A stretch of 36,607 bases of DNA, from the NCBI GenBank assembly GCA_021818865.1, contig JAKASX010000031.1:1-36607 (forward strand). Direction: 5' to 3'. The notes under the pieces were generated by a model, which saw nothing but the letters and a program-made list of their open reading frames with translations, was not told the origin of the DNA and did not search any database. Of this stretch, positions 5,500 through 30,787 are shown in pieces. The position numbers were made by a program, and so were the translations under genes. The stretch is from Acidobacteriota bacterium. Lineage in GTDB: Bacteria; Acidobacteriota; Terriglobia; Acidiferrales; UBA7541. Numbering within the stretch: position 1 is the first letter of the stretch; each line of letters opens with the position of its first letter.

Positions 5500-5910
5500 T
5501 TATCGTTCTACGCGGGTTACCTTGGAGGGTCGGAACCGCACAATCGCATTTCCCAGCCGCGAATCGGGAGCGTTGGCAAGCGCCCGTCCCATCTCCTCAC
5601 GCACGAAATCCACGAACGCCTGCACCTGTTTTTCCATGTCCATCATTTTGTCGCGCATGTTCAGCACCACTTCGATTCCCGCCAGATTCACGCCCATGTC
5701 GCGGCTCAGCGTCAGAATCACATCCAGCCGTTCGAGGTCCTGATCGGTGTAAACGCGCGTATTTCCCTGCGTCCGCGAAGGTTTCAGCAGCCCCAGCCGT
5801 TCGTACAGGCGCAGCGTTTGCGGATGAACGTGATAAATCTCGGCCACCGCGCTGATCATGTAGCCCGCGCGGCTCTTTTTCTTTCGCTTCGTCTGCGCTC
5901 GTGGCGCCAT
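5500..5910 (-). CDS. hspR: MerR-family heat-shock regulator HspR
   Basis: 136 residues. A basic N-terminus (KRKKKSR) precedes a MerR-type winged HTH in which AEIYHVHPQTLRLYERLGLL is the signature helix pair, followed by a wing (RTQGNTRVYTDQDLERL). The C-terminal half is a probable coiled-coil dimerisation helix. HspR proteins repress the dnaK operon, with DnaK acting as co-repressor, by binding the HAIR inverted repeat. Linkage to dnaJ (13-base gap) and dnaK upstream, and a HAIR-like site at the dnaK promoter, make the assignment strong. A GAGGAGAG ribosome-binding site lies just upstream of the ATG. Confidence 0.9.
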   Translation of the reverse strand: MAPRAQTKRKKKSRAGYMISAVAEIYHVHPQTLRLYERLGLLKPSRTQGNTRVYTDQDLERLDVILTLSRDMGVNLAGIEVVLNMRDKMMDMEKQVQAFVDFVREEMGRALANAPDSRLGNAIVRFRPSKVTRVER

Positions 5911-5923
5911 CCGCTCTCCTCGT

Positions 5924-7075
5924 TTACACTCCGGCGCGCTCGAACAGGTCCTTGCGCGGATCTTCCGGCTCGAGCTTTTCGAGTTCCTTCAGCAAATTCC
6001 GCACGCGCTCGTCAATCGGCCGCGGCACCACTACTTGCACCTCGACGAATTGGTCTCCCCGCCGCTCCGGATGCCGCGCCGATGCCACTCCCTTGCCGCG
6101 CAGCCGGAATCGCTGCCCGCTCGACGTTCCCGGCGGAATCCGCAAAAGCGCCCGGCCATCGATCGTCGGCACTTCGATTTTCGTGCCGAGCGAAGCTTCG
6201 GTCACCGTCACCGGCACAACGGTGCGAATGTCGTCGTCGCGCCGCTCGAAATACGCGTGCGGCTCGACTTCCGTGATGATGTAGAGATCGCCTCGCGCTC
6301 CGCCCAGCTTTCCGGCGTTCCCGTGTCCCGGCACGCGCACGCGCGAACCGGTATTCACACCCGCCGGAATCCTCACGTCGATCGTTTCCGCTTCCGCCGC
6401 GCGTCCTTCGCCGCCGCAAACCCGGCACACCGATCCCAGTTTTCCCGTGCCGCCGCACGAGCTGCACGTGATCTGGAATCGCATTCCGCCCGCGTTTTGC
6501 GTTACGCGTCCGCTGCCGCCGCACGTCGGGCACGTTTCCGTCTTCCCGCCCGCGACGCCCATCCCTCGGCACGCCTGGCAGGTCGCGAGCCGGCTGATCG
6601 TCATCTTCCGCACCGCGCCGCGCACCGCTTCCCAGAATCCGATGTGAATCTGGTATTCCAGGTCTTCGCCGCGTTCGGTTTCCTGCGTCGCTTGATGCGC
6701 TGCGCGGGCGCCGCGGAAAAACTGGCTGAAAATGTCGCGGAAACTCGCGCCGCCCAGGTCGCTCATGTCGAAACCGCCGAAATCGAACTGGACGTTTTGC
6801 CCGCCGGGCGTCGGCCCTCCCGGCGGCGGACCGCCGCGGTAATTTTCCGCGTAGAAACCCATCTCGTCGTACATCTTCCGTTTTTTCGGTTCGGAAAGGA
6901 CTTCGTAGGCTTCCTGGATCTGCTTGAATTTCTCTTCGGCGCTCTTGTCGCCGGGATTCAGATCGGGGTGGTATTTCCGCGCCAATTTACGATAAGCCGC
7001 GCGAATCTCCTTCGTCGACGCGCTGCGTCGCAGCCCCAGCAGTTCGTAATAATCCGTTTTGGCCGTCGTCGCCAT
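5924..7075 (-). CDS. dnaJ: Chaperone protein DnaJ
   Basis: 383-residue type I Hsp40, a co-chaperone that stimulates the DnaK ATPase and delivers unfolded clients. The J-domain (about 8-72) has the HPD motif at 36-38. A G/F-rich segment with many GG/GP runs follows (about 80-110). Four CxxCxGxG zinc-binding repeats run from C166 to about residue 224 ([32 protein letters not shown]). The substrate-binding C-terminal domains follow. The length is normal for DnaJ. The gene lies between the unknown small gene and hspR, in one transcriptional direction with dnaK. Only a weak GAGATAAG ribosome-binding site precedes the start. Confidence 0.96.
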
Positions 7076-7130
7076 CGCTTATCTCAATTTCGGTCCAACA
7101 ATACGTTGCAAAATGGCCCTCGGGAGCCCG

Positions 7131-7197
7131 CCATCCTGAGCCCAGCGCACCCCACTTCTGTCACCCTGAGCCCGCCGCAGCGGGCGAAGGGTCCCGA
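7131..7197. repeat. Dispersed CATCCTGAGC / GTCACCCTGAGC repeats
   Basis: Two consecutive related units (CATCCTGAGCCCAGCG and GTCACCCTGAGCCCGCCGCAG) lie between dnaJ and the small gene. They belong to the same family as the unit at 4443. The adjoining CGCCGCAGCGGGCG can form a short hairpin. Confidence 0.5.
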
Positions 7198-7270
7198 AAA
7201 TGGTGCCGCGTGGCAAGTCCAGCGACGGGACGTTGCGCTTCCTTCAGCACGACTCGCCGCCCCAGCGCGA

Positions 7271-7648
7271 TCACAGCTTCGCCCACGCCGTGTTCAATGC
7301 TTCCAGCTCCTGCCGCTCGCGAGCCAAATCATCCCGCCGCTGCCGCTGCTCTTCCGAACGACCCGCCATCGCCGCTTCTTTCTGGTTCGCGCGTTCCACC
7401 CACTTGTCGAGCAGAGGAATTCTGCCCTCGACGCTTGCCGCGTCGCTGCGGAATCGCAGAAGCGATCCCGAAATCTCGATTGCGCGCGTCGGGAAATCCT
7501 TCGGCACGTCCTGCTGCGTCTCGTAAAACAGCCGCCGCCAATCCGCGCTCGGCGCCGCCGAAAGCGGCACCTGCACCAGATACGTGCCTTCGCGCACTCT
7601 TTGTATCGCCTGCGGCGGCCCAACCCTCCGGATGTCTGCCTCGCTCAC
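7271..7648 (-). CDS. Uncharacterised 125-residue protein between dnaK and dnaJ
   Basis: I do not recognise this family. A GTG start at 7648 is favoured by a strong ribosome-binding site (GGAGGGAG, about 7 bases upstream). The frame stays open further upstream to 7843, but that extension is Arg-rich and overlaps dispersed repeats, so it is probably not translated. The protein has no signal peptide or TM segment. The N-terminal half is mixed alpha/beta (VREGTYLVQVPLS, AIEISGSLLRF). The last 45 residues are highly charged and likely a coiled coil (KEAAMAGRSEEQRQRRDDLARE written in part: heptad-like E/R/L spacing). Its position inside the heat-shock cluster suggests a chaperone-related or stress role, which is inference only. 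Confidence 0.6.
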   Translation of the reverse strand: MSEADIRRVGPPQAIQRVREGTYLVQVPLSAAPSADWRRLFYETQQDVPKDFPTRAIEISGSLLRFRSDAASVEGRIPLLDKWVERANQKEAAMAGRSEEQRQRRDDLARERQELEALNTAWAKL

Positions 7649-7892
7649 CGGTTTCTCCCTCCTTCGCCTCCCGCAGCCGATTCGCCTGCGTCTTCCTGTA
7701 GCCCAGCCATCCTCTGTGCCGCGCCTTGACGTGCCAAAGTGCGCCAATCCGTAAAATGCCGTCATCCTGGGGCCGAACGTCGAAACCGAACCCTGCCTCC
7801 TCCGATAGCGGCCGAAGCATCTGCTTTTCGCCGCGCCGCACAAGCAATTCGCCGGGCAGCAATCCGCTCATCCTGCCCGTGTCGGCTCGTGG

Positions 7893-7916
7893 TGGCACAG
7901 GCATCCTGCCTGTGTA
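7893..7916. repeat. GGCACAGGCATCCTGCCTGTG palindromic repeat
   Basis: CACAGGCA at 7896-7903 pairs perfectly with TGCCTGTG at 7907-7914 around a 3-base loop. It lies in the 290-base gap between dnaK and the small gene. A decayed relative (GTAGCCCAGCCATCC) lies near 7698. Besides these repeats I see nothing else in the gap. Confidence 0.6.
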
Positions 7917-7938
7917 CTTTCCCGCATTCCCGCCGCCC

Positions 7939-9891
7939 TCAGTTCGGCTTCTTCGATTCGTCCACGTCTACGAATTCGGCGTCAATCACTTCGCCCTGCT
8001 TCTCGCCGCCTGCGGCTTGTCCCGCGGCACCCGGCTCCGGTCCTGCTTGCGGCCCGGGTTCCGCGCCAGGTTGTCCCGCCGCGGCGCCGGCCGTGCGATA
8101 GAGCGCTTCGGCCAGCTTGTGCGAAGCTTTCGTCAGCGCTTCGACGGCGGCATTCAGCTTGTCGATTCCGCCCTCGCTCAGCGCGCGCCGGCTCTGCTCG
8201 ACGGCGTCTTCGGCCGTCTTGCGCTCGGCTTCGGGCAGCTTTTCGGCGTTTTCCTTCACCAGCTTTTCCGTCTGGTAGATGAGCGTATCCAGCCGGTTGC
8301 GCGCTTCGGCTTCCGCCAGCCGCTTCTGGTCTTCCTCGGCGTGCGATTCCGCCTCGCGCTGCATCCGTTCCACTTCGTCCTTGCCCAATCCGGTCGAAGC
8401 GGTGATCGTGATTTTCTGTTCCTTGCCCGTCGCGCGGTCTTTCGCGCTCACGTTCAGGATGCCGTTCGCGTCGATGTCGAACGTCACTTCGATCTGCGGC
8501 ACGCCGCGCGGTGCCGGCGGAATGCCCACCAGATGGAACCGCCCGAGCGTCCGGTTGTCGCCCGCCATTTTCCGTTCGCCTTGCAGGACGTGAATTTCCA
8601 CGTCGTGCTGGTTGTCGCTCGCGGTCGTGTAGACTTCCGATTTCCTCGTCGGAATCGTCGTGTTCCGCGATATCTGCACCGTCATCACGCCGCCGTAGGT
8701 CTCAACGCCCAGCGAAAGCGGCGTCACGTCCAGAAGCAGAATGTCCTTCACCTCGCCCGAGAGCACGCCGCCCTGCACCGCCGCGCCCACGGCGACCACT
8801 TCATCGGGGTTCACCCCTTTGTGCGGTTCCTTGCCGTTGAACAGGTCCTTCACGATCTGCTGCACGCGCGGAATTCGCGTCGAGCCGCCCACCAGCACTA
8901 CTTCGTTGATCTGGTCCGGCTTCATTCCCGCGTCTTCCAGCGCCCGCTTCACCGGCCCGACCGTTCGCTGCAAAATCTCTTCCATCAGCTGTTCCAGCTT
9001 CGACCGGCTCAGCTTCAATTGCAGGTGTTTTGGTCCGCTCGCGTCCGCGGTGATGAACGGCAGATTGATTTCGGTTTCCGGCGTCTGCGAAAGCTCGATT
9101 TTCGCCTTCTCGGCCGCTTCCTTCAGCCGCTGCAGCGCCATCCGGTCCTTGCTCAGGTCGATGCCCGGGTTGTCGCGCTTGAATTCCGCCACGATCCACT
9201 CGATGATTTTGTGGTCGATGTCGTCGCCGCCCAGGTGCGTGTCGCCGGCGGTGGATTTCACTTCCACCACCCCTTCGCCGACTTCCAGAATCGAAATGTC
9301 AAACGTGCCGCCGCCCAGGTCGTACACCGCGATCGTTTCGTCTTTCTTCTTGTCCAGCCCGTAAGCGAGCGCGGCCGCCGTCGGCTCGTTGATGATTCGC
9401 ACCACTTCGAGCCCGGCGATTTCACCCGCCTGCTTGGTCGCTTGCCGCTGGCTGTCGTTGAAATACGCCGGAACGGTGATGACGGCCTTTGTCACCTTCT
9501 CGCCCAGAAAATCCTCGGCCGCCGCCTTCAGTTTTTGCAAAATCTTGGCGGAAACTTCCGGCGGGCTGTAGGGTTTGCCCTCCAGCTGCACGCGCGCATC
9601 GCCGTTCGGCCCCTGCACCACCTTGTAGGGAATCCGCCGCGTCTCGTCGCCCACCTCGTCGAACCGCCGGCCCATGAACCGCTTGATGGAATAGACCGTG
9701 TTCTCGGGATTCGTGATCGCCTGCCGCTTGGCCACTTGCCCCACCAGCCATTCCCCGGCCTTAGTCAGGCCCACCACCGACGGCGTGGTCCGCGAACCCT
9801 CCTGGTTGGCAATCACCGTAGGCTCGCCGTTCTGCATCACGGCCACCACGGAGTTCGTCGTTCCCAGGTCAATTCCAATAATCTTGCTCAT
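7939..9891 (-). CDS. dnaK: Molecular chaperone DnaK (Hsp70)
   Basis: 650-residue Hsp70 of normal length. The N-terminus [19 protein letters not shown] is the phosphate-1 motif of the actin-like ATPase. The later [14 protein letters not shown] and the [12 protein letters not shown] segment are the phosphate-2 and adenosine motifs. The substrate-binding domain ([14 protein letters not shown] onwards) and helical lid follow. The protein ends in an acidic EFVDVDE tail. It folds and protects proteins in the cytoplasm together with DnaJ and GrpE (no grpE in this window). The start at 9891 has a GGGAGG ribosome-binding site 6 bases upstream; a longer frame to 9912 lacks conserved residues. Transcription is likely from the promoter at 9946-9974 under HspR control. 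Confidence 0.98.
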
Positions 9892-9945
9892 CCGAGCCTC
9901 CCACCAAAGCAATTCTGGCTGATAAGATAGCGCTCATCGCTGGTC

Positions 9946-10225: not shown

Positions 10226-10894
10226 GTGGCTTTTTTACGTAGGCGTTTTGCCGGTCCTGCAACTCTTATTTCCGTCTTTTTTGCTCTTTCCATCGCTTCG
10301 CCCGCCGTCGCTGGTGGCAAGGGCGCTACGGGGCGCGGCCTTCCGGCGATCACGCCGGCCGAAATTGCCCAGCAGAAATCCTTTGGCATGAAAAATGCGC
10401 CCATCGAAATCCAGGACTTCACGGATTTCGAGTGCCCAGCCTGCCGCGCTCTGTACATGCAAACCCTCCGCCCGCTGATCAACGATTACGTGGCGACCGG
10501 CAAGGTCTACCTGGTCCACCACGATTTCCCGCTCCCGATCCATCCCTATTCCCGCAAAGCCGCCTATTACGCCGACGCGGCCGCCGCCATCGGCCGCTTC
10601 GAAGCGGTCGAGCGCGTCCTCTTCACCACCCAGCCCACCTGGGCCGCGACGGGGAAAATCACGCCTGAGCTCGCCACCGTGCTCAGTCCCGAGCAGCTCA
10701 AGCAGGTCGAGGAACTCGCTCGCACTCCCGAAATTCAGAACGCCGTTCAGCAGGATGTGGATCTCGGTCAGCGGCTCAACATTCGCGAGACGCCCACGAT
10801 CTTCATCACTCACGACGGCAAAACGTTTCCCGTGATCGGAGTCGTTCAGTATCCGATTCTGCGCCGTTATTTGAACGATATCCTGCGGAAGTAA
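10226..10894 (+). CDS. DsbA-like thioredoxin-fold protein (copy 1)
   Basis: 222 residues. A signal peptide (hydrophobic about 12-30, ending near SPAVAGG) directs export. The thioredoxin fold has the active-site motif CPAC (C70/C73) after the strand IQDFTDFE, and a cis-Pro loop (RETPTIF), as in DsbA/BdbD-type disulfide oxidoreductases. These proteins oxidise or isomerise disulfides in exported proteins. The GTG start at 10226 is supported by a GGGGGAGGAG ribosome-binding site 5 bases upstream. It is followed by a paralogue 88 bases downstream; both share the SFGMKNAPI/TFGVSNAPI segment, the CPxC region and a PILRRY ending, so a tandem duplication is clear. Confidence 0.88.
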   Translation: MAFLRRRFAGPATLISVFFALSIASPAVAGGKGATGRGLPAITPAEIAQQKSFGMKNAPIEIQDFTDFECPACRALYMQTLRPLINDYVATGKVYLVHHDFPLPIHPYSRKAAYYADAAAAIGRFEAVERVLFTTQPTWAATGKITPELATVLSPEQLKQVEELARTPEIQNAVQQDVDLGQRLNIRETPTIFITHDGKTFPVIGVVQYPILRRYLNDILRK

Positions 10895-10982
10895 CCGGCC
10901 GGGCAAACCGCCGCGACGCAAATCCTCGATCCGGGTAGAATAGGGAAGCGTTCCCGGCGAATGGGGGAACGAAGGAGGCGTG

Positions 10983-11636
10983 GTGAAAGCACTGGCAAAT
11001 CGTTTCGCACTGGCGGCGTTCCTCTTGGCAGCCATCGCCGCCTCATCGAGCGCGCGCCCTCGGCCGCGCCGTCCCAGCCAGACGGCCATCCCCAAGGTCA
11101 CCTTGGCGCAAATCGCCCAGGGCAAAACTTTCGGCGTCAGCAACGCTCCCATTCGCATCGATGCCTACACCGATTTCGAATGCCCGCATTGCCAGGACTT
11201 GTACCTGAACACGCTGCGCCCCCTGATTGACGACTACGTCTCCTCCGGCAAGGTCTATCTGGTTGACCACGATTTTCCGTTTCATCCTTATTCGCGCATC
11301 GCCGCCTACTACGCCGATGCCGCCGCCGCCGTCGGCCGCTTCTCTCCCGTCGCGCAGGCGCTTTTCCTTCATCAAAGCGAATGGTCTTACACCGGCAAAG
11401 TCGAGCCGATTGTCGCCGCCGTTTTGAGCCCCGCCAAAATGAAGATCGTTCAGGCCCTCGCCCAGACGAGCGTCGTCCATCAGGCCGTGCAGGACGACTA
11501 CAACCAGGGCATGCACCTCGGCGTCAACCAGACCCCGACGATGTTCATCACCCACAACGGCCAGAAAATGCCGATCATCGGTTTCGTCAGCTATCCGATC
11601 CTGCGCCGCTATATTGACGCCTTGCTCCATCAGTAG
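10983..11636 (+). CDS. DsbA-like thioredoxin-fold protein (copy 2)
   Basis: 217 residues and a paralogue of the preceding gene. It has an N-terminal signal sequence, the active-site motif CPHC (C67/C70), the same dipeptide as E. coli DsbA, and a cis-Pro loop (NQTPTMF). Two GTG codons lie in tandem at 10980 and 10983. The second is preferred because GAAGGAGG at 10971-10978 then has 4 bases of spacing rather than 1. A TAGAAT box at 10936-10941 might be a -10 element, but no -35 is seen. The MauE-like gene follows 6 bases after the stop, so the two are co-transcribed and probably act in one thiol-redox pathway. Confidence 0.88.
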   Translation: MKALANRFALAAFLLAAIAASSSARPRPRRPSQTAIPKVTLAQIAQGKTFGVSNAPIRIDAYTDFECPHCQDLYLNTLRPLIDDYVSSGKVYLVDHDFPFHPYSRIAAYYADAAAAVGRFSPVAQALFLHQSEWSYTGKVEPIVAAVLSPAKMKIVQALAQTSVVHQAVQDDYNQGMHLGVNQTPTMFITHNGQKMPIIGFVSYPILRRYIDALLHQ

Positions 11637-11642
11637 CCGCCC

Positions 11643-12191
11643 ATGACGCCTCAAGCCCGCACGCGCCTCCGCCGCTGGCTTCTGATCGTAGGCCGCTTGG
11701 CCCTCGGCGCGCTTTTCCTCTTCGCCGCCTACGGCAAGCTCCGCCCGGTCGATAGCGCGCCCTTCACCCTCGCCTCGCTCAAAATCACGCCGAATTCGCT
11801 CGATGTATCCATGATGATGTTCGCCATGCAGATCGATTCCTACCAGATGCTGCCGAGTTGGGGCGTGATGGTCCTCTCGCACACGCTTCCCTGGCTCGAG
11901 CTGGCCATCGGCCTGTTTCTGGTCTCCGGTCTTTTGTTGCGCTGGGTTTCGCTGCTCACCACGCTGCTTCTGGCTGTTTTCTTCAGCGTTCTCCTCCACA
12001 GCTATTTCGCCGGCTTGCAGATCAATTGCGGCTGTTTCGGTCCCGGCACCGAAGCGCTCAATGGCTCCCGGCTCCTCCTCGAAGTCTTGTTCCTAGCGCT
12101 CGCGCTCGCCGTCACGATCGGCGCGTTTTTGGACGCCCGTTTCCGCCGCATCGCCCGCGCCGCCGTTCCTTCTGCCGCTCCCGCCGACTAA
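11643..12191 (+). CDS. MauE/DoxX-like integral membrane protein
   Basis: 182 residues with about four TM helices (roughly 13-33, 78-100, 103-121 and 142-162). The motif NCGCFG (C129/C131) in the loop after the third helix is characteristic of MauE/DoxX-type proteins. MauE is needed, with the thioredoxin-like MauD, for disulfide formation in methylamine dehydrogenase. Here no mau genes are present, and the partner genes are two DsbA-like proteins. A general role in re-oxidising or reducing these periplasmic thiol proteins is likely (inference). No DsbB or VKOR gene is nearby. Confidence 0.8.
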   Translation: MTPQARTRLRRWLLIVGRLALGALFLFAAYGKLRPVDSAPFTLASLKITPNSLDVSMMMFAMQIDSYQMLPSWGVMVLSHTLPWLELAIGLFLVSGLLLRWVSLLTTLLLAVFFSVLLHSYFAGLQINCGCFGPGTEALNGSRLLLEVLFLALALAVTIGAFLDARFRRIARAAVPSAAPAD

Positions 12192-24209: not shown

Positions 24210-24512
24210 GTACCATTACCGCCATCAGTGCATGTATGAGCAATTTCCCGGGCCCATGTCCACTTTCGTCACCTTTTGTCGGTTTATGTCCGTTGCGGGA
24301 CTCTATAGCAATTGGCGTATAAGCGCAAGAGTGTTTCGAGAAGAAACACGCGGTGCTGTCGGACGAGCACTTTTCCGCCATCTTCGGCCGATTAGGGGAA
24401 ACGGACCAAGCCCAGTCGCCGTCCCTTGGCCGAGAATTGATGCTGGTAGGAAAAGGGGGCCTCGGTTGCTGTGCGAGGGGCCGACTTACTTTCAAACAAG
24501 GAGATGCTAGTC
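24210..24512. promoter_or_regulatory. Divergent intergenic region with an inverted repeat
   Basis: This 303-base gap must contain the promoters for the regulator (-) and the exosortase cluster (+). GTGTTTC (24331-24337) and GAAACAC (24343-24349) form a perfect 7-bp inverted repeat that could be an operator. No convincing -35/-10 pair was found. The 3' end supplies AAGGAG (24498-24503) for the small gene at 24513. Confidence 0.4.
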
Positions 24513-24737
24513 ATGTTAAAGAGAAACCTGCGCGTTCGCCCGGGGTGCGTAATGTCGAACCGGCCGGTAATCGCCGCCGGCCAGGTTTTTATGCTTCTCT
24601 TGGCCTGTTGTGTGGCCGGCTATGCCCAAAGCGGGTGTGCGCAGGCCTCACCTGAGAATCCGTCGGTTGTTCTCGCCTTGCTTGGCGGCGGAATTGCCGC
24701 CTTGTCATTGATACGGGCGCGCCACAAATCGAAATAA
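24513..24737 (+). CDS. 74-residue protein with PExP-CTERM-like sorting tail
   Basis: An N-terminal signal sequence (basic residues 3-17, hydrophobic about 19-38, AGYAQ) is followed after only a few residues by a tripartite C-terminal tail: PENP at 47-50, a hydrophobic helix (VVLALLGGGIAALSLI, 52-67) and a basic end (RARHK). This is the architecture of PEP-CTERM-type exosortase substrates. An exosortase gene begins 29 bases later. After both cleavages only about QSGCAQAS would remain, with one Cys (C42). The ATG at 24513 is preferred because AAGGAG is 9 bases upstream; ATG 24504 has none in range. This is a likely dedicated substrate, but another small membrane peptide is possible. Confidence 0.7.
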   Translation: MLKRNLRVRPGCVMSNRPVIAAGQVFMLLLACCVAGYAQSGCAQASPENPSVVLALLGGGIAALSLIRARHKSK

Positions 24738-24766
24738 CGAACCACCCAGCCGGACTGCCAAGAGTC

Positions 24767-25702
24767 ATGGCCACGAAGCTCGAATCTGATGTTCTCGTGC
24801 AGTCACTTCGGGAAGACGCCCCCGGCATAAGGAATGGTCGCTCGGCGCTGCTCGGCGTTGCCGTCCTAGCGATTGCCGGGATGGCTCTGTTTTGGTGGCA
24901 GTTTTACTCGCTGTTCTATCTGTGGACCAGCGACAGTCTGCGCTCGATCGGAATCCTCGTCATCCCCGCTGCCGCCTTCCTCGCCGCGCGAAAGCTCTGC
25001 CGTGAGGATTTGAGCCTGGGTGGAAGCTGGTGGGGGATGGCCCTTGTGGCTCTGGCGTTCGCCGGCGCCGTTCTCGGCGATTACGGAGGCCTGCATCTGG
25101 TCTGGGGCCCGCGTTTGGCGTTGAACCTGGCCGCGCCCGGAGTGCTCTTCTTCCTTTACGCCAGTGGCGTTGTGATCTTGTTGGGCGGTACGAGGGCATG
25201 GCGCAAGGCATGGTTTCCGCTTTCTCTGTTGCTGCTCGTCAACCCCGTGCCCGGGGCGTTTTCGACTCTAGTGGATTTGCCATTGCAACACTTGGGAGCG
25301 GAAGCGGCCCGTTCTTTCGCCGCGCTCCTCGGCGTTCCGGTCCAGGGCGCCGCGCTCAACCTGATGTTCTATCACGGCGTGCTGGGCATGTTCATTGCCC
25401 CGGCTTGCAACGGACTGCATGGCGCCGTGGCAATGGGGATGGTCGCGCTGGTGGTCGGCCACTTGCGCGGGCTGCGCCTCACGCGACACGCGCTTTTTGT
25501 CACCGCGGCCGTTTTGCTCGCCTATCTCTTTAATTTTCTGCGCCTCTGCGCCCTCGTGCTCTATTACGCGCTCGCCCACCGGTTCCCCCTTCTCGGCGGC
25601 TACGCGGTTGGCGCGGATTACCTGATTGGCGGAACGCTATTCCTTCTGGCCGCCGCATTTCTCTTTTGGCCTCGTGGCCTGGGTCGCGCCAGTGAAGCGT
25701 AA
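24767..25702 (+). CDS. xrtJ: Exosortase (exosortase J-like)
   Basis: 311 residues with about eight TM helices. The motif APACNGLHGAVAM (C214) is the conserved Cys region of exosortases, and NFLRL (R259) is the conserved Arg. Exosortases cleave the C-terminal tail of PEP-CTERM-type proteins and probably pass them to a cell-surface acceptor. The third catalytic residue, a His usually in a (L/F)HD-G-type motif, is less clear: the nearest is H271 in ALAHRFP, while the aligned stretch further on reads GADYLIGG. The J type is suggested by the acidobacterial context and is tentative. The gene overlaps the EpsI-like gene by 11 bases and follows the small tail-bearing gene. Confidence 0.85.
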   Translation: MATKLESDVLVQSLREDAPGIRNGRSALLGVAVLAIAGMALFWWQFYSLFYLWTSDSLRSIGILVIPAAAFLAARKLCREDLSLGGSWWGMALVALAFAGAVLGDYGGLHLVWGPRLALNLAAPGVLFFLYASGVVILLGGTRAWRKAWFPLSLLLLVNPVPGAFSTLVDLPLQHLGAEAARSFAALLGVPVQGAALNLMFYHGVLGMFIAPACNGLHGAVAMGMVALVVGHLRGLRLTRHALFVTAAVLLAYLFNFLRLCALVLYYALAHRFPLLGGYAVGADYLIGGTLFLLAAAFLFWPRGLGRASEA

Positions 25703-26345
25703 GCTCATCGTTTTCGGGGCTCTGCTGGTTGCCTGCGGAATTGCCGAGTATTTTCTCCACGCGCTTTCCCCCCGCTTTTCCCGAATTCATGCGCAAAAAG
25801 CGATTGCCCAGACCTTGCCTCCGGCGATCGGAGACTTCCGCAGTGTCAGGAGATGGAATGTTCCGTCCAGCACCGGGGTGACCGAGGCCGGCGCCAGCTA
25901 CCTTAACCCTTCCGGCGTGGAAGCCAGCGTGGACATTCGCCTGAATAACGGGGGACCTCACAACGGCGTTGCCTGTTGGCTGGTCGAGGGATACCCCATG
26001 ATTTGGCAACGGCTGATCACCGTGCGTGCGCGCAGCGGGACTTCCACCTTCGACGCCGCTCTCTTCCGCCGCAAGCGCGGCCTCGCCTTGCTCGCCAACA
26101 CGGAATGCTTTGCGGCGGGGTGCACAGAAACCCGTCTTCCGAACAGCTTCGGCCTCCGCATGGAGTCCGCTCCGGCGCCGGCCATTTCCGCCGTCCCGGT
26201 TTCGATCGTTGTCAAGGATCCCTCTGGACTCGCGCCCGTAACCGGCGGGAGGGAGTCTTCGCAGTTGGTCCAAAGGTTTCGGGGATTTGTGGCCCATTTG
26301 AATCTGAGGGGTCTGTTTTGGACTGAGCCCGCGCGACAGCGCTAA
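25692..26345 (+). CDS. EpsI-like exosortase-associated protein
   Basis: 217 residues from the GTG at 25692 (another GTG at 25674 is possible; neither has a good ribosome-binding site). An N-terminal membrane anchor (KLIVFGALLVACGIAEYF) precedes a periplasmic domain. The LPPAIGDFRSV segment matches the start of EpsI/DUF3485 domains, which accompany exosortases as separate proteins or C-terminal fusions. Two Cys in NTECFAAGCTE may form a disulfide. Its biochemical role is not known. It overlaps the exosortase gene, so translational coupling is likely. Confidence 0.72.
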   Translation: MKRKLIVFGALLVACGIAEYFLHALSPRFSRIHAQKAIAQTLPPAIGDFRSVRRWNVPSSTGVTEAGASYLNPSGVEASVDIRLNNGGPHNGVACWLVEGYPMIWQRLITVRARSGTSTFDAALFRRKRGLALLANTECFAAGCTETRLPNSFGLRMESAPAPAISAVPVSIVVKDPSGLAPVTGGRESSQLVQRFRGFVAHLNLRGLFWTEPARQR

Positions 26346-28846: not shown

Positions 28847-30787
28847 TTGGGCAAAAGCGAGCCGCTCGCACCTTGTCTTGCGGCGCTAGCCGCGTTGCTC
28901 CTGGTCGGGTGCGGCGCGGGCAGCGCTGCGCTCGCTTCGTCCGGCGGTTCAACGGGCAACGGGGCACCACCGGCAATTGCATTTTCAGGCAACGTGAACG
29001 GCGGCGGGCCGCAGAATCCGATTGCCGGTTCGACGGTAACGCTCTACGCGATGGGGCCGGCCGGCGCCGCAGGCGGTATCTGTAACGGTTCGCCTTGCTA
29101 CGGCGCCAACGCTCTGGCGCTCGCGCAGACCACCTCGAATAGCTCGGGTTCGTTCAGCTTCGCCGCGGGGTCTTACAACTGTTCGTCCTTGAACGATCCC
29201 GCCGATCAGACTTACATCACTGCCATCGGCGGCAATCCGGGCTCGGGAGAGAACACGGCGATAGGGTTGATTGCGCTCACCGGACCATGCAATCTGCTGT
29301 CTTCCTCCACCTTTGTCGTAGTGAACGAACTCACCACCGTTGCAGCGGAGTGGGCGTTCACGCAGTTCACCGACGCTTCAGGAAAGAATCTCGGCGCAGC
29401 CTCGGGCGACCAAACCGGACTGAACAACGCGTACGCGATCTTCGGCAACCTTGTGGCCATGGACTATTCCACAGATTCCGTGAATGGAAACCCGTCGAGC
29501 TTCTTGCCGACGGCGTCCCAGTGCTCATCCGCAAGCCCGCCGGCAAATTGCGAAGCTTTGCAAAAACTCGATACGCTAGCGAACATTCTGGCTGCCTGCG
29601 TGAACAGCAACGGCCCCAGTTCTGGTGCCTGCTTAAATCTATTTGCCGACACTAGCATTTCGCCAAGTAGCACAACGCTCAGCGCGGCTCATGTGATTGC
29701 CGCTCAACCCGCCACCAACGTGACCACACTCTTTTCGCTACTCGCTGCTGCCTCGACAACTCCGTTCGAGCCGGGTCTACAATCGGCTCCTAACGACTGG
29801 ACGCTTGCTTTAGCTTATCCCGGTGGCGGACTCAACGGTCCGGCCGCGATCGCCATCGACGCCGCAGGCAATGCCTGGGTCGCCAACGACGCCGGTGTGG
29901 TCGTGGAACTCGCTCCCAACGGCAGCGCGTTATCCGGCCCTGCTGGTTTCACTGGCGGAGGGCTTGACCACTGCTTTGCCATTGCCGTTGACGCTTCGGG
30001 GAACGTCTGGGTGACGGATAAATACAGTTCCACAACAAACGGCGGAGTGACGGAACTCTCTGCGAGTGGCGCCATACTATCGGGTCCTAATGGGTACGCA
30101 AATGGAGGAATCGACTACCCATTGTCTGTGGTCATTGATTCGTCCGGCGACCTCTGGGTGGCCAATTACGCCAATGCCAGCCTGACGGAAAACCCTCAGT
30201 CCTCCTCTGCGACGAGTATTACTGGAGGCGGCCTCAGCTTTCCCGTGTCGATCAGCCTGGACGCTTTGGGGCACGTGTGGGCGGCGAACTTCGGTAATAG
30301 CAGCGTCTCTGAATTCGACTCTAGTGGCGGCGCCTTATCGAGCAGCACCGGCCACACGTCGGGAGGGGTGGATGGCCCGGACGCGATTGCGTTGGACCCA
30401 AGCGGCTACGCCTGGATCGCAAATTATTACGGGAACAGCGTAACGCTATTGGATGCCTCTGGAGACGCCGCGAGCGGATCACCGTTCACCAGTGGGGGTA
30501 TGGTTGGCCCGGCAGGGATTGCGCTTGATGGTGCCGGCAACGTGTGGATCTCGAATTACGTCGGCAATAGCATCACCGAGCTGGAAGGATCGGCGGAATC
30601 AAATCCGGGCGCACCGCTCTCCGGCTCCCCGGGCTACAAAGCTGAGCTCTCCCAGCCCGATGGTCTCGCCATTGATTCCAGCGGAAACGTCTGGGTGCCG
30701 AATTACGGCGACAACAGCGTGACCCTATTCCTTGGTGCAGCCGCGCCCGTAAAGACCCCAGTGTTCGGCCCCCCTACCAAGCCCTAG
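28847..30787 (+). CDS. Paralogous lipoprotein with seven-repeat beta-propeller, no Cys pairs
   Basis: 646 residues from a TTG at 28847. A lipobox (LLLVGC, C22) is followed by the same N-terminal module as the preceding protein (GGGPQNPIAGSTVTLYAMGP..., VVNELTTVAAEWAFTQF), similar even at the DNA level. Seven NHL-like units follow (NAWVAND, NVWVTD, DLWVANY, HVWAANF, YAWIANY, NVWISNY, NVWVPNY) without the paired Cys. It arose by duplication of its neighbour. The start is odd: no ATG or GTG lies in frame between the previous stop and the signal sequence. TTG 28847 is the best standard choice. A GTC at the place matching the start of the upstream paralogue has a GGGAAGG-like sequence before it. 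Confidence 0.8.
   Translation: MGKSEPLAPCLAALAALLLVGCGAGSAALASSGGSTGNGAPPAIAFSGNVNGGGPQNPIAGSTVTLYAMGPAGAAGGICNGSPCYGANALALAQTTSNSSGSFSFAAGSYNCSSLNDPADQTYITAIGGNPGSGENTAIGLIALTGPCNLLSSSTFVVVNELTTVAAEWAFTQFTDASGKNLGAASGDQTGLNNAYAIFGNLVAMDYSTDSVNGNPSSFLPTASQCSSASPPANCEALQKLDTLANILAACVNSNGPSSGACLNLFADTSISPSSTTLSAAHVIAAQPATNVTTLFSLLAAASTTPFEPGLQSAPNDWTLALAYPGGGLNGPAAIAIDAAGNAWVANDAGVVVELAPNGSALSGPAGFTGGGLDHCFAIAVDASGNVWVTDKYSSTTNGGVTELSASGAILSGPNGYANGGIDYPLSVVIDSSGDLWVANYANASLTENPQSSSATSITGGGLSFPVSISLDALGHVWAANFGNSSVSEFDSSGGALSSSTGHTSGGVDGPDAIALDPSGYAWIANYYGNSVTLLDASGDAASGSPFTSGGMVGPAGIALDGAGNVWISNYVGNSITELEGSAESNPGAPLSGSPGYKAELSQPDGLAIDSSGNVWVPNYGDNSVTLFLGAAAPVKTPVFGPPTKP

Follow-up and report, generated by a model that had tools for sequence, protein, structure and literature searches.

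The locus described here pairs an exosortase with a presumed substrate that has almost nothing between signal peptide and sorting tail. It lies in a stretch of 36,607 nucleotides, the whole of which is called the window below, from the draft genome (165 contigs) of a soil acidobacterium. A first-pass annotation had placed a small gene, an exosortase gene and a third ORF in a row and had pointed out that the signal peptide of the small protein is almost joined to its PENP-hydrophobic-RARHK tail. Reading the sequence directly, with gene starts picked by eye, we found this arrangement on the plus strand (Table 1): the 74-residue product, MLKRNLRVRPGCVMSNRPVIAAGQVFMLLLACCVAGYAQSGCAQASPENPSVVLALLGGGIAALSLIRARHKSK, has hydrophobic stretches at about residues 17–38 and 50–66, just QSGCAQASPENPS between them and the basic tail RARHKSK.

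Table 1. Features of the exosortase J locus and its downstream neighbours, in positions of the window.
Feature	Position	Strand	Evidence
Ribosome-binding site AAGGAG of the small gene	24498–24503	+	9 bases before ATG 24513, read directly
Small PExPT-CTERM protein, 74 aa	24513–24737	+	TIGR04200 46.4 bits, cut-off 40
Predicted signal peptide, residues 1–38, signal peptidase I site GYA↓Q	24513–24626	+	hydrophobic stretch; x-x-A↓Q or similar in most homologues
Predicted mature stretch QSGCAQASPENP, residues 39–50, conserved Cys42	24627–24662	+	Cys position in 20/20 distinct acidobacterial homologues
PExPT-CTERM tail: SPENPS, transmembrane stretch, RARHKSK	24648–24734	+	tail-profile E=5.7e-14
Exosortase J, catalytic half	24767–25702	+	TIGR04199 240 bits, cut-off 200, model 1–269 of 522; Pfam PF09721 E=6.7e-32
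Cys214 of C-x-G	25406–25408	+	motif scan; CNG in window
Arg259 of N-x-x-R	25541–25543	+	motif scan; NFLR in window
Asp284 of D-x-x-x-G, presumed substitute of the triad His	25616–25618	+	motif scan; DYLIG in window
Detached EpsI-like C-terminal half of XrtJ	25692–26345	+	XrtJ model 304–450, E=3e-5
NHL-repeat lipoprotein, 758 aa	26388–28664	+	Pfam NHL; A4 profile E=7.7e-194; lipobox-like LAACG
Second NHL-repeat lipoprotein (start TTG inferred)	28847–30787	+	37% to L070 NHL; A4 profile E=7.3e-231

The small protein is a member of TIGR04200 in NCBIfam ('PExPT-CTERM protein', targ_of_XrtJ), and the exosortase ORF alone matches exosortase J (XrtJ, TIGR04199), each above its cut-off, in agreement with the exosortase J-like locus proposed at first. 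With E-values of 2.5e-12 and 5.7e-71, respectively, and an order of genes that recurs in 17/19 acidobacterial XrtJ loci and in a Reyranella MAG, the three-gene locus is not due to chance. The pairing of enzyme and target is therefore already catalogued, and it cannot be claimed as new, since NCBIfam names TIGR04200 as the presumed XrtJ target. Judged by sequence comparison, the window locus is a new, split and divergent member of this pair. At 240 bits, compared to about 550–700 in Acidobacteriaceae (as which group f2 is taken by inference), its enzyme is far more divergent, and the window genome is the only one among its 61 relatives with an XrtJ over cut-off, leaving this copy isolated in its family.

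In Acidobacteriaceae, the exosortase and EpsI-like halves constitute one protein of about 540–590 aa. In the window, the EpsI-like C-terminal region of the 522-position TIGR04199 model resides on a separate, unfused ORF, which matches this part of the model alone. Window XrtJ is thus split, with the third ORF as its detached C-terminal half. The 'EpsI-like' gene of the first-pass annotation is present as an ORF, but the full frame (25626–26345) matched neither a Pfam family nor an EpsI model, and its reading as an EpsI-family protein was rejected. Its start is most likely GTG 25692 rather than TTG 25626, and from this GTG it overlaps the exosortase stop by 11 bases. The same split is seen in the Reyranella MAG (L068; small protein 5560–5766, XrtJ 5839–6828 with 215 bits, over cut-off, and EpsI-like ORF 6825–7424), beyond which no further alphaproteobacterial relative was found in 337 genomes of the class and 61 of the family.

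Among 396 Acidobacteriota genomes, TIGR04200 and TIGR04199 were each found over cut-off in 17, and these 17 are identical (Fisher p=3e-30, with independence overstated by the relatedness of the genomes). XrtJ-carrying genomes are phylogenetically clustered, most of them belonging to one genus, g4, in which 14 genomes carry both families and the other 6 sampled carry neither (p=3e-5, where kinship again overstates independence). The small gene sits directly upstream of 16 of the 18 XrtJ genes outside the window, or 17/19 with it, at a spacing of mostly 33–66 bp in loci with clear start codons. Absence of the small gene beside homologous exosortases, which the first-pass annotation had named as a refuting observation, was thus not the rule; the two XrtJ genes without an adjacent small gene are second copies in the genomes G130 and G202.

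The window exosortase had no match among plasmid sequences. In a genus mate, a copy of the upstream HTH gene (56% identical) is flanked by unrelated response-regulator genes, which rules out a clean empty site in that genome. Elsewhere in the window, the ORF 7726–9930 (+) carries a Pfam NAD-GH match (PF10712, E=2.5e-161) opposite a 657-aa minus-strand ORF (7939–9912) and near a DnaJ gene (5924–7075, −). We take PF10712 to be a family of spurious ORFs antisense to chaperone genes, and ORF 7726–9930 is therefore probably no real gene.

Predicted processing would leave about 10 amino acids of the small protein. An x-x-A↓Q-like signal-peptidase site, followed by Q-x-G-C, is kept in most homologues, paralogues included, and in 20/20 distinct acidobacterial small proteins a Cys precedes SPE at a spacing of 3 residues, or 4 in the window. 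Motif, basic tail and single Cys are conserved, contrary to the lack of conservation at the PENP and basic-tail positions that the first-pass annotation had named as its other refuting observation. The very short mature product, noted at first for this locus, is no oddity of the window: the site and the closely spaced Cys recur across homologues, making such a product a property of the whole family, with both cleavages predicted.

A profile of the tail alone (A3), searched in 16 system-carrying genomes, revealed no larger protein with a PExPT tail; every match at E below 0.02 was a small protein, and in the window genome the small protein of the locus was the single match at E≤0.05. Each genome has one to three small genes, and in four genomes extra copies lie away from XrtJ. 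G147 (L084 9691–10317, +) has two in tandem, far from XrtJ and downstream of a DUF6599 protein, G202 has two, and G112 has one beside a GH28 glycosidase. The extra copy of G130 (L088 about 9560–9730, −) has the motif PECPT (MKILTRIAFLGSLFMVPALLQAQGACVDSPECPTAILGVVGAAGAALYVRWRSR) and lies directly upstream of a Poly_export/SLBB gene that apparently shares an operon with an O-antigen-ligase-like gene, which hints at an exopolysaccharide link. VPEID-CTERM, considered as a precedent for tiny targets, was dropped because a single match, in an open frame of 166 aa, exceeded the cut-off. We additionally observed two proteins of about 1400 aa next to the second XrtJ copy of G202 (L083 10617–14819 and 15045–19199, +). 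In their C-termini, a helix is followed by an RRK or RRRK stretch, another helix with a CG motif at its end and then a short beta-like segment, possibly another surface-anchoring tail.

Since the extra small genes are scattered far from XrtJ, a substrate role fits better than that of an enzyme subunit. The latter is the alternative that survives best: the small protein would remain uncleaved and bind XrtJ as a membrane subunit of two helices, be it as assembly factor, pseudo-substrate or inhibitor, while the true substrates bear an unrecognised tail. A protein that is essentially two membrane helices joined by a short loop, and whose gene immediately precedes that of the enzyme, would suit such a role, and partner-dependent exosortases exist, given that xrtF and the adjacent Fjoh_1449 share a biofilm phenotype in Flavobacterium johnsoniae (PMC10936215). 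We nevertheless regard it as unlikely, as two XrtJ paralogues have no adjacent small gene, PExPT is the kind of motif by which a substrate would be recognised, and a pure helix subunit would need neither the signal-peptidase-like site nor the Cys of the predicted mature stretch, both of which are kept. The guide or inhibitor role suggested in the first-pass annotation is likewise not favoured, because the 16 genomes searched contain no other tailed protein to guide and the extra copies, far from the enzyme, look like substrates.

The small protein from Reyranella (23 bits, below the TIGR04200 cut-off) has the predicted mature part ELILSPEDPS and no Cys. The Cys is thus not universal, and its chemistry is not essential everywhere. 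This weighs against a second alternative, in which lipidation of the conserved Cys would precede cleavage at the C-terminus, in the manner proposed for MYXO-CTERM, to give a lipopeptide rather than a transpeptidation product. The position of the Cys directly before the motif in all 20 acidobacterial proteins would agree with lipidation, and cleavage of MYXO-CTERM proteins requires an invariant Cys that is proposed to be lipidated (PMC11980579). However, the exosortase is unrelated to the CPBP-type myxosortase and no lipobox is present at the conserved Cys (mostly A-Q-x-G-C), which rules out reading the small protein as a lipoprotein and renders lipidation quite improbable. The window that encodes this predicted Cys-containing exported peptide also encodes, at 10226–12191 (+), a pair of DsbA-like thioredoxins and, after them, a membrane protein of the MauE/DoxX type.

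An NHL beta-propeller lipoprotein is encoded directly after 17/19 acidobacterial XrtJ genes, the exceptions being G273 and copy 1 of G130; in Reyranella, no NHL gene adjoins XrtJ. From the coordinates of both XrtJ copies in G130, the small gene lies at one copy and the NHL gene at the other. At its C-terminus, the NHL protein carries a conserved GLAxPVKTPxLGPPQxP-like tail, and in the window the second lipoprotein, with the C-terminus APVKTPVFGPPTKP, is the nearest counterpart of the XrtJ-downstream NHL lipoprotein elsewhere. Weaker relatives occur in 6 XrtJ-free genomes, 5 of them in genus g4, and within this genus the mere occurrence of an NHL relative shows no association with XrtJ (p=0.3). 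Presence alone is therefore unspecific in g4, while adjacency and the strongest scores are specific. That the NHL lipoprotein is the real effector and the small protein a merely vestigial or regulatory reading frame is very hard to credit: the NHL gene does lie next to the XrtJ copies that have no small gene (second copies of G130 and G202), but the sequence of the small gene is conserved between orders and among paralogues, with a distribution perfectly matching XrtJ, and the NHL protein lacks a sorting tail and, as stated, is not always beside XrtJ.

Turning to the enzyme, the six invariant residues of EpsH are those of C-x-G, N-x-x-R and H-x-x-x-G (Haft et al. 2006, PMC1569441). By motif scan, C-x-G and N-x-x-R were found in 20/20 XrtJ-type sequences, and in the same 20/20 the third motif is replaced by D-[YL]-x-[IL]-G, with DYILY as the Reyranella form, compared to H-x-x-x-G in 14/14 other exosortases of the same phylum. 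The window enzyme has C-x-G and N-x-x-R of the exosortase (EpsH) superfamily and lacks the triad His; since all 20 XrtJ-type sequences have Asp at this motif, the entire XrtJ family represents a superfamily variant. Motif order and spacing suggest that the Asp substitutes for the triad His. In a MAFFT alignment the Asp falls one column off the His, AlphaFold2 with a two-sequence alignment reached a pLDDT of 44.7 and gave no usable structure model for this question, and the PDB holds no sequence relatives of the exosortase ORF or the EpsI-like ORF.

We consider it probable that exosortase J operates as a single-purpose system with always tiny substrates, a 'dedicated system', as Haft 2011 called a sorting enzyme that has a single target (PMC3237569). 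The family matches over cut-offs, the identical distribution over 17 genomes, the small gene upstream and the lack of any larger tailed protein in 16 genomes all argue for this reading, as do the scattered extra small genes, the kept signal-peptidase-like site and Cys, the invariant catalytic Cys and Arg and the NHL neighbour at 17/19 loci. Against it stand the absent triad His, the two XrtJ paralogues without an adjacent small gene, the missing Cys in Reyranella, a product so short that it is unusual for an exosortase, and the NHL relatives in XrtJ-free genomes, together with the g4 result for NHL presence; moreover, Pfam scans of the window ORFs recognised no exopolysaccharide genes beside XrtJ. 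In the dedicated system, the small protein would be exported by the Sec pathway and cut by signal peptidase I at GYA↓Q, which would leave about 12 residues, one of them Cys, in the periplasm, still tethered through the C-terminal helix. XrtJ, by means of Cys214, Arg259 and probably Asp284, would cut at the PENP motif and, in line with proposals for other exosortases, may pass the new C-terminus of the Cys peptide to an envelope acceptor. Candidate acceptors are a lipid, an exopolysaccharide or the NHL lipoprotein itself, and the EpsI-like half together with the downstream NHL lipoprotein would help to receive or present the product. Spelled out in full, and in this form put forward only tentatively as rather improbable, XrtJ would be a single-purpose Cys-Arg-Asp sortase that fixes a ribosomal peptide, about ten residues long and with one Cys, to an envelope acceptor, perhaps in concert with the NHL lipoprotein, and would perform peptide tagging rather than surface-protein sorting.

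The literature searched, with partial coverage, yielded no relevant paper on XrtJ, TIGR04199, TIGR04200 or PExPT-CTERM. As far as this partly covered literature shows, it has not been described that all substrates are tiny, that the small proteins of Acidobacteriota share an invariant Cys, that XrtJ has Asp instead of His or that an NHL gene lies beside it. The system is naturally minimal, with one enzyme, one to three tiny substrates and one frequent lipoprotein neighbour, and several of the genomes are nearly complete. The acceptor onto which exosortases transfer their substrates is a long-standing question, and a product of ten residues lends itself better to identification by mass spectrometry than a large surface protein does. 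In addition, an invariant Asp in place of His bears directly on the presumed Cys-Arg-His triad.

Compared to known systems, the window locus is closest to the catalogued TIGR04199/TIGR04200 pair, with which it shares the gene order and the target architecture of signal peptide, short Cys loop, PENPT, helix and RxR tail; it differs in the split of XrtJ into two ORFs, its far greater divergence and a motif that ends in PENPS instead of PENPT. With the classical PEP-CTERM/exosortase system of the EpsH or XrtA type (PMC1569441), it has in common the multi-helix enzyme with C-x-G and N-x-x-R and the tripartite tail of motif, helix and basic residues. In contrast to that system, XrtJ features D-x-x-x-G for H-x-x-x-G, there are one to three targets per genome versus a median of eight, and the small substrate is devoid of a surface domain, with no exopolysaccharide genes found beside the window XrtJ. 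XrtF with Fjoh_1449 (PMC10936215) is comparable in that an enzyme of the exosortase family has a partner gene beside it and is not known to have conventional PEP-CTERM substrates, although XrtJ belongs to another subfamily and the likeness to Fjoh_1449 is one of gene adjacency. Finally, the invariant Cys beside a tripartite C-terminal tail is reminiscent of MYXO-CTERM (PMC11980579), where, however, myxosortase is an unrelated protease and a genome encodes dozens of MYXO-CTERM proteins.
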